From a bacterium HR28 (lineage in GTDB: Bacteria; Chloroflexota; Chloroflexia; Thermomicrobiales; Thermomicrobiaceae): a stretch of DNA of 64,000 bases. Below the pieces are notes generated by a model that searched no databases, was not told the DNA's origin, and was given only the letters and a program-made list of their open reading frames with translations. Where the stretch lies: the NCBI GenBank assembly GCA_002898255.1, contig BEIE01000002.1, positions 186,001 to 250,000 on the forward strand, written 5' to 3'. Shown here piece by piece: positions 34,104 through 40,622 of this stretch; within the stretch, counting starts at the first letter, position 1; every line of letters begins with the position of its first letter. The translations under genes were made by a program, and so were the position numbers.

Positions 34104-34236
34104 GGCCGACAAACCACCCTAGCGGATAGTCGCGAAACTACCCAATCGGTCGTGTTCGCTACACCGGCTCGCGCAGAAACTGCGAGTAGGACAACGGATG
34201 GGGCAGGCCCCGCAAGGGGACAAGGAGGGACGGACC

Positions 34237-36264
34237 ATGGCCGAAAACCGTGAGCGACCACCGTTCCAGATCGGTCAGCAGAAGGTTAGTCGGCGTGGGC
34301 TCCTCGGTGCAGCGGCAGGACTTTCAGCTGGTGCGTTGCTAGCGAGCTGCAGCGTCCTGCAGCGCAAAGAGGAGACACCAAAGCTGGGTGCCACAGCTGA
34401 GGAGATCATCAAGCAGCGCCAGCTGACGCCCGAAGATGTTACAGCAGCCCTGATGACCTACGTGCCATCGGGCAAATATGACGAGTTTCTCATGTTCTCC
34501 TCAACAGGCCACGGCGGGCAGGTGTTAGTCCATGGTCTGCCGTCGATGCGCCTTCTCAAGGTCATCGCCGTCTTCAGCCCAGAGCCGTGGCAGGGCTATG
34601 GCTATGGGGGTTACACCAGCGAGGTCCTCGAGGGCGGCTACTTCAAGGGCAAGCCGATCCTGTGGGGCGATACGCACCACCCGGCCTTGAGCGAGACGAA
34701 TGGCGAATATGACGGCGAGTTCCTGTTCATCAACGATAAGGCGAATGGGCGCATCGCAGTCATCGACCTCCGCGACTTCGAGACCAAGCAAATCGTCAAG
34801 AACCCCCTCCTGGTCAACGAGCACGGTGGCTGCTTCGTGACGCCCAACACCGAGTACGTGCTCGAGGCTGACCAGTACTCAGTGCCGCTCGGCGGCGTCT
34901 ACGCGCCGATCACTGAGTACAAGGAGAAGTACCGCGGCGTCCTCACCTTCTGGAAGTTCGACCGCCAGAAGGGCCGCATCGTCCCAGAGGAGTCGTTCGC
35001 CATTGAGACACCACCGTACTGGCACGACTTGGCCGACGCGGGCAAGGGGCCATCGCACGGCTGGGCTTTCTGGAACTCGTTCAACACTGAGCTTGCCATT
35101 CCCGGCATAGCAGAAGGTCGACCAGCGCTCGAAATTGCCACGACCCAGCGCGACATGGACTATCTCCATGTCGTCAATTGGAAGAAGGCCGAAGAACTCA
35201 TCGCGGCGGGCAAATATGAGACAATCAACGGCTTCAAGGTTATCCGCATGGATGTCGCAGCAAAGGAAGGTGTCCTCTTCCTGATCCCAGAGCCGAAGAG
35301 CCCGCACGGTGTGGATGTGACGCCAGGTGGGGATTACATCATTGTGGCAGGGAAGCTCGACCCGCACGTGACCGTATACAGCTTCGCCAAGATTCAGCAG
35401 GCCATCCAGGCTGGCAACTGGGACACTGACGAGTACGGCATCCCGGTTCTTCCCTTCGACCAATGCGTCGAGGTACAAGTCGAGCTTGGGCTCGGCCCCT
35501 TGCACACCCAGTTTGACGATCAGGGCTACGCCTACACCAGCTTGTTCCTCGATAGTGCGGTCGCCAAGTGGTCACTGGGCAAGCCGTACCGCGAGGACGG
35601 CTGGAAGCTGGTTGAGAAACTGCCGGTCCAGTACAACATCGGGCACCTCGCTGCTGCTGAGGGGGATACCGCAAAGCCGGCCGGCCGCTTCCTCGTCGCG
35701 CACAATAAGTGGTCGGTCGACCGGTACGCCAGCCTCGGACCTCTGCTGCCGCAGAACGCGCAGCTGATCTCAATTGCACCGAATCAACCGATGCGCGTTC
35801 TTTACGACAGCCCGATCGGAATCGGCGAGCCACATTACGCGCAGATCATCAAGCGCGAACGGATCAAGGCTTGGGATATCTATCCTGAGGTGGGTTGGAA
35901 CCCGCATACCCAGAGTGTCGATCCCAACGCTGTCATCAAGGTCGGTGACGAGCGGATTGAGCGACGCGGCAAGACCGTGGAGATCTGGGGCGTCCTGCTG
36001 CGCAGCCAGATTCGCCCAGATCTCATCGAGGTCGAGCAGGGCGACGAGGTCATCTGGCACCTCACCAACATCGAGCGCGCCAAGGACGCGACGCACGGCT
36101 TCGCCCTCGGTGGCTACAACATCAACTTGAGCCTCGAGCCGGGCGAAACGCAGACCATTCGCTTCGTCGCGGACATTCCAGGCACCTTCCCGTTCTACTG
36201 CACTGAGTTCTGCTCCGCCCTGCACCTCGAGATGGTGGGCTACTTCCTGGTGAAGCCGACCTGA
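34237..36264 (+). CDS. nosZ: Nitrous oxide reductase NosZ, Tat-exported lipoprotein form
   Basis: NosZ reduces N2O to N2 outside the cytoplasmic membrane using the copper centres CuA and CuZ. In the 675-residue protein all seven expected CuZ histidines are visible: His147-His148 in DTHHPA, His196, His357 in SPHG, His423 in PLHTQF, His470 and His533 in EPHYA. The C-terminal cupredoxin domain has an intact CuA set: His620, Cys655, Cys659, His663 and Met666. The N-terminus has a twin-arginine motif (SRRGLLG, residues 18-24) and then LLASC with Cys38 as lipobox, so the enzyme is probably membrane-anchored. The ATG at 34237 follows AAGGAGGGA. It heads the nos operon. Confidence 0.97.
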   Translation: MAENRERPPFQIGQQKVSRRGLLGAAAGLSAGALLASCSVLQRKEETPKLGATAEEIIKQRQLTPEDVTAALMTYVPSGKYDEFLMFSSTGHGGQVLVHGLPSMRLLKVIAVFSPEPWQGYGYGGYTSEVLEGGYFKGKPILWGDTHHPALSETNGEYDGEFLFINDKANGRIAVIDLRDFETKQIVKNPLLVNEHGGCFVTPNTEYVLEADQYSVPLGGVYAPITEYKEKYRGVLTFWKFDRQKGRIVPEESFAIETPPYWHDLADAGKGPSHGWAFWNSFNTELAIPGIAEGRPALEIATTQRDMDYLHVVNWKKAEELIAAGKYETINGFKVIRMDVAAKEGVLFLIPEPKSPHGVDVTPGGDYIIVAGKLDPHVTVYSFAKIQQAIQAGNWDTDEYGIPVLPFDQCVEVQVELGLGPLHTQFDDQGYAYTSLFLDSAVAKWSLGKPYREDGWKLVEKLPVQYNIGHLAAAEGDTAKPAGRFLVAHNKWSVDRYASLGPLLPQNAQLISIAPNQPMRVLYDSPIGIGEPHYAQIIKRERIKAWDIYPEVGWNPHTQSVDPNAVIKVGDERIERRGKTVEIWGVLLRSQIRPDLIEVEQGDEVIWHLTNIERAKDATHGFALGGYNINLSLEPGETQTIRFVADIPGTFPFYCTEFCSALHLEMVGYFLVKPT

Positions 36265-36355: not shown

Positions 36356-36991
36356 ATGGCAACTCCCGTTGTTCGAACACCCGCTAGATCCCGCATCCCG
36401 CGGCCACTCGCCGCAGTGCTCGCTCGCATCGGTGACCGCGTTCCTTTTTTCCTTGCTGCCATCATGCTTGGAGCTTCACTGGCACTCCCATACTGGCACA
36501 TGACGCTGCTCGCCCCACAGTACCCTGGCGGTCTCCGTGTCGTGATCTATCTCACGAAGCTCGCTGGTGACGTGCAAGAAGTGAACGGGCTCAATCACTA
36601 CATCGGAATGATGAAGCTCGAAGAGGCAGCGACCTTCGAGCGCGCCATCGCCCCCTACGGCGTCGCCGCTCTGGCGCTCCTCGCTCTTCTCGCCGGACTA
36701 CTCCGGCGACGGTGGACCGCGCTTCTCGCCACGCTTGTTGTTAGCTTCCCAATTATCTTCGTCGCTGACCTCCAGTACTGGCTCTGGTACTTCGGCCATA
36801 ACCTCGATCCACACGCTGCACTCTCAAGCGCGATTAAGCCCTTTACACCACCCGTGCTCGGTACCGGACGCGTTGGACAATTCGTGGTCGAGACGCGTTT
36901 CGGCAGCGGACTCTACCTCGCCATCCTCGCCGCTCTAAGTGCACTCGTCGGCATCACCACGCGTCTGCGCGGCTCCGCCGAACGGGGGTGA
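36356..36991 (+). CDS. Membrane protein of the nos operon, NosB-like
   Basis: The 211-residue product has four membrane helices (about residues 25-45, 95-117, 122-145 and 180-200). An outer segment carries LPYWHMTLLAPQYPGGL and LNHYIGMMKL, followed by DLQYWLWYFGHNLDPHAAL; conserved His and aromatic residues lie near the membrane surface. A membrane protein in this slot between nosZ and nosD is usual in clade II-type nos clusters and is called NosB there. Its role is unproven. The ATG at 36356 has an AAAGGA site; nosDF starts 4 nt after its stop. Confidence 0.72.
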   Translation: MATPVVRTPARSRIPRPLAAVLARIGDRVPFFLAAIMLGASLALPYWHMTLLAPQYPGGLRVVIYLTKLAGDVQEVNGLNHYIGMMKLEEAATFERAIAPYGVAALALLALLAGLLRRRWTALLATLVVSFPIIFVADLQYWLWYFGHNLDPHAALSSAIKPFTPPVLGTGRVGQFVVETRFGSGLYLAILAALSALVGITTRLRGSAERG

Positions 36992-36995
36992 CGCC

Positions 36996-39350
36996 ATGCG
37001 CCGGCTTGTTCTCGCCGCAACACTGACGATGCTCCTGCTCGTCACGCCGCCCCAGGTCCGCGCCAGCGAACTCCTCGTCTGCCCCGAGTGCCCGCTACGT
37101 GATATCCAGGAAGCCATCGCCACCGCACCGGTCGGCGCAACGATCCGCGTCCGTGGCGGCGTCTATGCCGGCCCGGTCGTCGTCGACCGCCCGCTTACGC
37201 TGTACGGCGAGAACTGGCCGGCAATCGATGGCGGCGGGCAAGGTACCGTCCTTCATGTCGCCGCACCCGATGTCCGTGTCGAGGGATTCATCGTCCGCGG
37301 CAGCGGCACGAATCACGACCGCGAGGACACCGGCATCCTTGTCACCGCACCACGAGCCCAGATCGTCGGCAACCAGGTTCTTGACAGCCTCTTCGGCATC
37401 CAGCTCCTTAACGCCCCCGATGGACTTGTCAAAGGGAACCTTGTGGTTGGTAAGCCGCTTCCCGAACCACAACGTGGTGACGGCATTAAGCTCTGGTATA
37501 GTCCACGTGCCCAAATACTCAATAACCACGTACGCGACAGCCGTGATGTAATCGTCTGGTACTCCGATCAGACACTCCTGCGAGGAAATGTCGTTGAGCG
37601 CGGGCGTTACGGCCTGCACTTCATGTACTCGAGCGACAGCCTCGTCGAGCAGAACGTGCTCCGCGACAATTCGGTTGGAATCTACCTTATGTACGGAGCC
37701 CGGCAGATCGTCCGCAACAACGTCTTTTTCCACAACCGTGGGCCCTCCGGATATGGGCTAGCCATCAAAGAAACCGACGGGGTCGTTGCTGAGGCAAACC
37801 TCATGCTGCGCAACCGTGTCGGACTCTACATCGATAATTCCCCGATCTCTGAGGGAGTCATCAACCAGATCACAGGCAATTGGATCGCCTATAACGACGT
37901 TGGCCTCCTCATCAGCCCGGCGACCCGCTCCAATCTCATCACCGGCAATACGCTCTTGGAAAATCTCGAGCAAGCAGCACCGCAAGGCGGCGGGACGCTC
38001 GACCATATCACCTGGGCCGAATCCGGGCGTGGCAACTTCTGGAGCGACTACGCCGGCTATGATGCCGACCGCAACGGCATTGGCGATCTCCCGTACCAGA
38101 ACCGTGCACTTTCGAGTGTTCTCACTGACCGCTCCCCGTTGCTCGCCTTTTTCCGCTTCAGCCTTGTCGCTTCCGCGCTCGATCTGGCTGCACGTGCTGT
38201 TCCTCTCTTCCAGCCAGCACCACGCTTCACCGATCCCGCTCCACTCGTTCAGCCAACGCCGTTGCCGGAGCTCCCATGGAGCGTCTCTCCACCATCCCGC
38301 ACCGACGCATTCCTCTCGCTGGCCCTGCTCACTGCCGCCGCTCTGCCTTTCCTCTTTGCCCTCCGTGGATCGCCGCGGTTCGCGCTCGCACAAGCAGCCA
38401 AGGCTCCCCGCGCATCTGCGCCAGTGGTACTCGCTTCTACGGCCCCCTCCACCGCAACCGCTGCGTGTACTGTCACGGACGCAGCCGTTGTGCAGGTCCA
38501 TGGGCTCACCAAGCGTTTCGGGGATCGCCTCGTTCTCGATAACGTGAGCTTCAGCGTCCGACCAGGCGAGGCAGTCGCCCTCTGGGGACCAAACGGTGCC
38601 GGCAAGACTACCATCCTTCGCTGCTTGCTTGGCCGAACTGCCTACACCGGTACAGTCACTGTCTTCGGCCACTCACCGCTACAGGACGGTCCAGCCGTAC
38701 GGGCACAAATCGGGTATGTGCCACAGCAACTGCCGCTCCTCGACCTTACAGTTGGCGAGCTCTTGACAACCGTTGCGCGCCTGCGTGGCGAGCCACTCGA
38801 GCGCGCATGGGAACGACTTGGTGTCTTTGGCCTCCAGCACACTTGGCATCAGCCCGTACGCACACTCTCGGGCGGCATGCAGCAACGACTTGCTCTCGCC
38901 CTGGCAACGATTGGTGATCCGCCGCTGCTTCTACTCGACGAGCCAACCGCGAACCTGGACGCGACCGCGCGCGAGGAACTCTTGGCCGCGCTTCGACAAC
39001 TTCGCGAGGCGGGACGCACGATCATCTTCGCCTCGCACCGTCCCGATGACGTCTGGCGCCTCGCCACGCGCGTCTTGCGACTCGAGGCAGGCCGCGTCGT
39101 CGCTGAGTCACGCGCAGCAGCCCTGCCGGTACGCCACGACATCCACCAATCACTCATCCTCGAACTCGATGCCGATGCCCTGCAGCCAGCCACACACCTC
39201 CTCACTGCGCACGGCTTCGCTGTTTATCGCGAGGACCAGCGACTCCGCGTCCTCGTTCCACCCCAGCGGAAGGCAGAGCCGTTCTTCCTGCTTGCCCGGC
39301 TGGGTATCCAAGTTCGAGATTTCCAGTTGGAGGTCACCGATGGCTGGTAA
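36996..39350 (+). CDS. nosDF: NosD-NosF fusion: copper-maturation beta-helix protein joined to ABC ATPase
   Basis: NosD, NosF and NosY normally form an ABC complex that matures the CuZ centre of NosZ. Here NosD and NosF are one 784-residue chain. Residues 1-23 are a signal peptide. Residues about 25-370 are a right-handed beta-helix with carbohydrate-binding/NosD repeats (GIQLLNAPDG, GLHFMYSSDSLVEQN, VGIYLMYG) and the NosD ending GRGNFWSDYAGYDADRNGIGDLPY. A membrane helix at about 437-457 returns the chain to the cytoplasm. Residues about 498-784 are NosF, with Walker A GPNGAGKTT (531-539), LSGGMQQ (624-630), Walker B LLLLDEP (644-650) and His681. The reading frame is continuous, with no frameshift. 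It overlaps nosY by 11 nt. Confidence 0.95.
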   Translation: MRRLVLAATLTMLLLVTPPQVRASELLVCPECPLRDIQEAIATAPVGATIRVRGGVYAGPVVVDRPLTLYGENWPAIDGGGQGTVLHVAAPDVRVEGFIVRGSGTNHDREDTGILVTAPRAQIVGNQVLDSLFGIQLLNAPDGLVKGNLVVGKPLPEPQRGDGIKLWYSPRAQILNNHVRDSRDVIVWYSDQTLLRGNVVERGRYGLHFMYSSDSLVEQNVLRDNSVGIYLMYGARQIVRNNVFFHNRGPSGYGLAIKETDGVVAEANLMLRNRVGLYIDNSPISEGVINQITGNWIAYNDVGLLISPATRSNLITGNTLLENLEQAAPQGGGTLDHITWAESGRGNFWSDYAGYDADRNGIGDLPYQNRALSSVLTDRSPLLAFFRFSLVASALDLAARAVPLFQPAPRFTDPAPLVQPTPLPELPWSVSPPSRTDAFLSLALLTAAALPFLFALRGSPRFALAQAAKAPRASAPVVLASTAPSTATAACTVTDAAVVQVHGLTKRFGDRLVLDNVSFSVRPGEAVALWGPNGAGKTTILRCLLGRTAYTGTVTVFGHSPLQDGPAVRAQIGYVPQQLPLLDLTVGELLTTVARLRGEPLERAWERLGVFGLQHTWHQPVRTLSGGMQQRLALALATIGDPPLLLLDEPTANLDATAREELLAALRQLREAGRTIIFASHRPDDVWRLATRVLRLEAGRVVAESRAAALPVRHDIHQSLILELDADALQPATHLLTAHGFAVYREDQRLRVLVPPQRKAEPFFLLARLGIQVRDFQLEVTDGW

Positions 39351-40167
39351 CACCGTCCTCGTTCTCGCCCAAAAGGAGCTCCGCGACGCGCTGCGCAATC
39401 GCTGGTTTCTGGCCGATGCCGTCGCGCTCCTCGTCCTGAGCAGTGCGCTCTCGCTCTTAGTTTTTCTTACCGGTGCCACGAGTCCGGTCAGCGGCTTCGG
39501 ACGTACCGCAGCAAGCCTAGTGAACCTCATGCTCCTCCTCGTCCCACTTATGGGGCTTACACTCGGGGCTCTCGCACTGGCTAGCGACCGTGAACGCAGT
39601 GCCCTTGAGTTCTGGCTGGCCCAGCCAGTCGGAACAGGCGCGTACTTTCTCGGCAAGGCGCTTGGCATCGGCCTTGCACTCGCCGCCGCAGTAGCGCTCG
39701 GCTTCGGCGCAAGCGCGGTCTTCTTGCTCTTCGTCGGCGCTACCGACCCGCTTGCTTTCCTTGCCCTCACCGGCCTGACCATCCTGCTGGCCTGGGCTTC
39801 TCTCACGCTCGGCCTTCTCCTCTCCAGTCGCTGCAGTCGGACCAGTACCGCAGTCAGCCTAGCACTCGGTCTCTGGCTTGTGCTTGTGCTACTCGGCAAT
39901 CTCGGACTTATGGGCACCGCACTCGCCGTACGCCTACCCCCCTCTTGGCTCCTTGGCATCGCGCTCGTGAATCCCACCGAGGCCTACCGCATCGCCGCCT
40001 TACGCCTCCTGGCCGGCACGCTGGAACTCCTCGGGCCTGCCGGTCTCTACGCCGACGAGCGCTTCGGTGCCACGCTGCCGCTCCTCCTCGCGAGCATGCT
40101 CCTTCTCTGGAGCCTCGTTGGTGGCGTCGCCGCCTACGCCGTCCTGCGCCGGGAGGTCTTGCGATGA
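39340..40167 (+). CDS. nosY: NosY, ABC permease of copper-site maturation
   Basis: NosY is the membrane subunit that works with NosF and NosD. The 275-residue product has six membrane helices, the typical start VLAQKELRDALRNRWFL and the family motifs SDRERSALEFWLAQPVGTG and NPTEAYRIAALR. The gene starts within the end of nosDF (11-nt overlap) and its stop overlaps the nosL start (ATGA). A single nosY with one fused ATPase implies a complex of two NosDF chains and two NosY chains. Confidence 0.93.
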   Translation: MAGNTVLVLAQKELRDALRNRWFLADAVALLVLSSALSLLVFLTGATSPVSGFGRTAASLVNLMLLLVPLMGLTLGALALASDRERSALEFWLAQPVGTGAYFLGKALGIGLALAAAVALGFGASAVFLLFVGATDPLAFLALTGLTILLAWASLTLGLLLSSRCSRTSTAVSLALGLWLVLVLLGNLGLMGTALAVRLPPSWLLGIALVNPTEAYRIAALRLLAGTLELLGPAGLYADERFGATLPLLLASMLLLWSLVGGVAAYAVLRREVLR

Positions 40168-40622
40168 CGCGCCGTCAGCTTCTTGTTGCACTCCTCGTCA
40201 CCATACCGCTTGCCGCCTGCCAGCGGAAGCGCGAGCTTTCCCCGCCCGAGATCCGCTACGGCCGCGATACCTGCGCCGAGTGCGGGATGATCCTTTCCGA
40301 CCCCCGCTTCGCCGCAGCAGCGACCACAGCCGACGGTGAGACGGTTCTGTTCGACGATATCGGGTGTCTCCTCACCTACCGGCAGAAGCACAGCCCCTCC
40401 TGGGCAGCTATATGGGTTCATGATCTTGACACTCAGTCCTGGCTCCAGGCCGAGAACGCCTGGTATCTCGTGAGTCCCAGCATCCGTTCACCAATGGGCT
40501 ACGGCATCGCCGCCTTTGCTGGTCAAGACGCTGCGCAGCGGCGCCAGGCGGAACTCGGCGGTGATCTTCTGCAGTGGGGGGACCTCCTTGCTCACCCCCC
40601 AGAACGGCCGCGACAGTATTGA
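40164..40622 (+). CDS. nosL: NosL copper chaperone lipoprotein
   Basis: NosL is an outer-face lipoprotein that hands Cu(I) to the Nos maturation complex. The 152-residue product has a lipoprotein signal (LVTIPLAAC) and then the copper-binding Cys-Ala-Glu-Cys-Gly-Met motif in RDTCAECGMILSDPRFAA. GETVLFDDIGCLL and a C-terminal MGYGIAAFA segment are typical of NosL. The ATG overlaps the nosY stop. It is the last gene of the operon. Confidence 0.94.
   Translation: MTRRQLLVALLVTIPLAACQRKRELSPPEIRYGRDTCAECGMILSDPRFAAAATTADGETVLFDDIGCLLTYRQKHSPSWAAIWVHDLDTQSWLQAENAWYLVSPSIRSPMGYGIAAFAGQDAAQRRQAELGGDLLQWGDLLAHPPERPRQY

Follow-up and report, generated by a model that had tools for sequence, protein, structure and literature searches.

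The window, the whole 64,000-nucleotide stretch of DNA analysed here, belongs to a heat-loving Chloroflexota bacterium related to Thermomicrobium. It carries a nos cluster in the order nosZ - nosB-like - nosDF - nosY - nosL. The third gene is one unbroken open frame on the forward strand (36996-39350) that runs from an ATG at 36996 to a stop codon ending at 39350 and encodes 784 aa. From N- to C-terminus the predicted protein, 95% identical to that of one Thermomicrobium strain, consists of a signal peptide, the full NosD beta-helix, one membrane helix, a disordered cytoplasmic linker and the full NosF ATPase. The features, all on the forward strand, are:

34198-36264, forward: nosZ, clade II nitrous oxide reductase with the twin-arginine-type signal SRRGLLGAAAG (TIGR04246, 928 bits; translation)
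36356-36991, forward: nosB-like membrane protein (from its position between nosZ and nosD)
36996-37067, forward: N-terminal signal peptide of NosDF, residues 1-24 (hydrophobic N-terminus; helix 2-14 in the AlphaFold2 model)
37068-38255, forward: NosD beta-helix domain, residues 25-420 (TIGR04247, 407 bits; PF05048, 146 bits; fold match 7o0y_A)
38298-38360, forward: single transmembrane helix, residues 435-455, running from outside to inside (hydropathy 2.25; AlphaFold2 helix; positive charge on the C-terminal side)
38361-38486, forward: cytoplasmic linker, residues 456-497 (pLDDT below 50 at 469-494; fast-evolving)
38487-39350, forward: NosF ATPase and C-terminal domain, residues 498-784, with the stop codon (ABC_tran; 7o0y_B by sequence and fold)
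38586-38612, forward: Walker A GPNGAGKTT, residues 531-539 (unchanged or almost so across the 30 fused proteins)
38865-38885, forward: ABC signature LSGGMQQ, residues 624-630 (translation; alignment of fused relatives)
38925-38945, forward: Walker B with catalytic Glu649, residues 644-650 (translation; alignment of fused relatives)
39340-40167, forward: nosY, ABC-2 type permease, overlapping the end of nosDF (PF12679, 75 bits)
40164-40622, forward: nosL copper chaperone (PF05573, 53 bits)

The order nosZ-nosB-nosD(F)-nosY is identical across the compared clusters, fused or not, and nosL comes next in most of them. The window NosZ (34198-36264) is "Sec-dependent" clade II by TIGR04246, yet its N-terminal signal is of the twin-arginine type (VSRRGLLGAAAG...). 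Tat signals have been reported earlier for clade II NosZ of Chloroflexota (PMC11409646), in a paper on unusual Tat and nosB features of Chloroflexota nos clusters that makes no mention of NosD or NosF. The nosB-like protein (36356-36991) is conserved across all the Chloroflexota clusters that were compared, yet nothing in Pfam or NCBIfam matches it, and it seems to lack a curated family. The NosY permease and NosL of a NosDFY system are encoded beside the window nosDF, and separate NosD and NosF chains are not; because NosD and NosF share one frame, the gene is classed as a NosDFY variant.

The identity of the two halves was established by profile, sequence and fold searches. The NosD half matches TIGR04247 with 407 bits (cut-off 300) over residues 37-419, covering positions 1-377 of the 377-position profile, and all 30 fused members match the same model. 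Its signal peptide, the beta-helix in the predicted structure, the fold match to 7o0y_A and the nosZ gene upstream likewise mark it as NosD. The NosF half matches ABC_tran with 105 bits (residues 514-652); a NosF-specific curated model gave no match for the window chain in Pfam or NCBIfam. All the catalytic motifs of NosF are present (Walker A, Q577 of the Q-loop, LSGGM, D648/E649 and the switch H681), and Walker A, the Q-loop, the signature, Walker B with its Glu and the switch His are invariant or nearly so across the 30 fused relatives. A sequence search of the PDB matched the two halves to Pseudomonas stutzeri NosD (7o0y chain A) and NosF (chain B). An AlphaFold2 model built from the 30 fused relatives (mean pLDDT 87) contains the beta-helix, a lone helix at 435-455, disorder at 469-494, the ABC domain and a C-terminal alpha/beta domain at 717-781. 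In fold searches the NosD half retrieved 7o0y_A at a TM-score of 0.83 by target length, and 7osf_B, 7o14_B and 7o0y_B were among the top matches of the NosF half. H208, M210 and M232 of the window NosD are invariant in the fused set and align with identical P. stutzeri residues; they are candidate copper-site residues.

Thus the claim of an earlier sequence-only reading that a complete NosD and a complete NosF lie in one frame is borne out, with domain and motif coordinates correct to within a few residues, as is the single membrane helix that it placed between them (AlphaFold2 helix 435-455, hydropathy 2.25). The topology that it proposed, NosD outside and NosF inside, is supported by the distribution of charge: 34 of the 36 fused proteins carry more K/R after the membrane helix than before it.

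A gene was counted as fused when the frame that encodes NosD goes on to encode a NosF domain. By this measure all 10 assessable genes of the window's own family are fused. Two further families of its order were sampled: in f92 one gene is fused, another is separate and a third is probably frameshifted, and in f2 none of seven is fused. Both genes of class f46 are fused. A second, larger Chloroflexota class, presumably Anaerolineae, has 22 fused genes out of 33 assessable (34 examined, one excluded as cut by a contig end), and four genes from other Chloroflexota families have separate nosD and nosF. The search across Chloroflexota that the sequence-only reading had suggested therefore did find the NosD-membrane helix-NosF architecture; it is not peculiar to this genome, however, but common and recurrent. 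Outside the phylum, none of the nine Actinomycetota genes examined and one of the 16 Acidobacteriota genes is fused. No fusion was found in Bacteroidota (80 genomes with NosD) or Pseudomonadota (46 genomes), where the NosD open frames, all 644 aa or less, are too short for one.

Several individual loci deserve mention. L161 (3768-6812, reverse strand) is a fused NosDF from a genome sampled as Acidobacteriota; it clusters with Chloroflexota sequences, through either gene transfer or a misbinned contig. In L163 (2942-4198, reverse strand) NosD loses its reading frame immediately ahead of the membrane helix, which is instead encoded in frame with NosF; the break is probably a frameshift, and the sister L162 has the gene in fused form. 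An apparent 1258-aa NosB-NosD-NosF-NosY chain in genome G472 (L102, 1378-5151, reverse strand) was set aside as a quadruple fusion: the contig has N bases where nosB meets nosD and where nosF meets nosY, the places at which stops are expected, and the longer chain is probably an artefact of assembly. A set of divergent NosD-like proteins (L030-L033, family f27) have open frames of 750-830 aa with several N-terminal membrane helices and possibly represent NosB joined to NosD.

The same architecture is found in T. roseum DSM 5159 as one CDS of 783 aa (WP_012643063.1) in a complete plasmid record. It is the same fused protein, about 76% identical to the window NosDF, in the same gene order and with nothing essential different; its annotation is NosD only, and the NosF half is unnamed. 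The T. roseum nos cluster (L164, NC_011961.1) lies on a 918-kb plasmid and, like that of the window, is followed by metal ABC transporter genes. When the window gene was compared with four Thermomicrobium-type genes, dN/dS was about 0.1 in both NosD and NosF and 0.2 to 1.4 in the linker. Linker identity is 23-28% in the two more distant comparisons, with L018 and with T. roseum. The five genes hold no stop or frameshift, although dS exceeds 1 in the farther pairs, and indels in the junction of fused relatives are in-frame and confined to the linker. An open frame would be expected to survive in a drifting linker only if the segment has to be translated through, and the fused chain is presumably made as one stable protein. 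The sequence-only reading had staked its claim on the absence of a missed frameshift or stop between 38100 and 38500, which would leave nosD and nosF as separate genes. Assembly errors do occur here, as the probable frameshift of L163 illustrates, but the single CDS in the complete T. roseum plasmid record and the in-frame junction in many independent assemblies contradict such an error and make its likelihood negligible. The fusion in the window is real and no sequencing artefact.

How the two genes came to be joined is suggested by the unfused clusters. The unfused NosD of Chloroflexota, Actinomycetota, Acidobacteriota and some Bacteroidota generally already ends in one membrane helix, and the C-terminal membrane helix of Bacillus azotoformans NosD is known (PMC3475470). 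Being present in unfused NosD too, the helix is no feature made for the fusion. In unfused clusters whose NosD has the helix, the nosF start often lies inside the nosD stop (ATGA, a 4-nt overlap), and in unfused Chloroflexota the overlap of nosD and nosF is usually 4 nt. An overlapping junction of this kind may have lost both its stop and its shift of frame to yield nosDF; a small indel at the overlap would join the genes and give the observed topology without further invention. On a tree built from the joined NosD and NosF domains, from which L041 (at a contig end) and L163 (probably frameshifted) were left out, the fused or separate label changes at least nine times, at least six of them forced by well-supported branches. 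The same tree rejects one common origin for the fused forms (p-AU 2e-67). The changes may be gains or losses, that is, either repeated fusion or fusion plus splits; the separate state is favoured as ancestral because the outgroups are separate.

The fused protein can be compared with two known arrangements. The P. stutzeri NosDFY (PDB 7o0y and others) resembles it in having a NosD beta-helix, a NosF with a C-terminal domain, a NosY-type permease and NosL in the cluster, but its NosD and NosF are separate, its NosD lacks the membrane helix, and one NosD is present per two NosF. The unfused NosD of B. azotoformans and of Chloroflexota loci L010, L011 and L013 is likewise followed by one membrane helix in the same place, but the chain ends shortly after the helix and nosF is a separate gene, which in Bacillus is placed after nosY. 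The contrast with one-NosD complexes drawn in the earlier reading is supported by the deposited NosDFY structures in the PDB, where NosD occurs as 16 chains across 16 entries and NosF as 30 chains across 15.

In the proposed mechanism, the signal peptide would direct export of the NosD beta-helix, transfer would halt at the single membrane helix, and the NosF ATPase would remain in the cytoplasm. NosDF and NosY would then form a NosDFY-type ABC machine in which, by homology, Cu(I) would pass from NosL via NosD to apo-NosZ, driven by ATP hydrolysis by NosF. ABC machines work with two ATPase domains. Since two NosF domains are needed, a fused chain is expected to bring two NosD per complex, and the assembly would be (NosDF)2(NosY)2, with two tethered NosD domains versus the single one of P. 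stutzeri. We regard it as probable that the window encodes one NosDF chain that acts with NosY, as (NosDF)2(NosY)2, as a NosDFY-type copper loader and arose through loss of the stop and frame shift at the overlapping nosD/nosF junction.

Three alternatives would keep the complex at one NosD. If the fused chain were cut in the juxtamembrane region or linker, an ordinary NosD1F2Y2 would result, with the surplus NosD released or membrane-anchored. The linker, disordered and fast-evolving, would be an easy protease target, the solved complexes have one NosD per two NosF, and a cut in so variable a segment would restore the usual 1:2:2 and leave no conserved motif. Against it, residues 417-497 have no conserved motif across the 30 fused proteins, and the repeated evolution and long retention of a fusion that is always undone would be odd, if conceivable; cleavage is thus unlikely, though the strongest of the three. 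A free NosF might also be made from the old nosF start, so that NosDF pairs with NosF. A Met at that position is kept in about a third of the fused genes other than the window's, and about a dozen second-class fused genes have an in-frame ATG at or next to it, several of them preceded by a Shine-Dalgarno-like stretch. Over all 36 fused genes, however, Shine-Dalgarno strength ahead of the retained ATGs averages -3.1, hardly above the -2.9 of synonymous shuffles, and the window has no ATG there: its nearby start-type codons are only GTGs, with no or a weak Shine-Dalgarno (-3.2 kcal/mol). An internal NosF start is therefore unlikely in the window and possible in some relatives, and as an explanation of the stoichiometry it is decidedly improbable. 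Less probable still is a heterodimer in which one NosDF partners a free-standing NosF-like ATPase from another locus. The genome does encode dozens of further ABC ATPases, but the closest (40% identity) adjoins its own ABC-2 type permease in an ordinary operon with no nos context. A second NosF-like gene in a nos setting was not found in the genome, and the nos cluster contains none.

Whether the reductase of N2O, a greenhouse gas, becomes active depends on maturation by NosDFY. By a search of the open-licence literature, the NosD-NosF fusion is apparently undescribed, while the fused protein is already in databases under the name NosD. Since fused genes can carry the label NosD only, as in T. 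roseum, surveys may miss NosF in many Chloroflexota N2O reducers. NosDF is a real, recurrent and moderately surprising architectural variant of NosDFY, and, as a single gene, it also provides a handle by which the complex could be purified from T. roseum and other thermophiles. The solved NosDFY is asymmetric (one NosD, two NosF, two NosY), and a natural 1:1 fusion is a test of whether this asymmetry is essential. The chances seem evenly balanced that Chloroflexota have repeatedly evolved a covalently locked 1:1 NosD:NosF loader, (NosDF)2(NosY)2, with two NosD arms per permease, unlike the one-arm NosDFY. If so, the two NosD arms could serve both subunits of the NosZ dimer or alternate.
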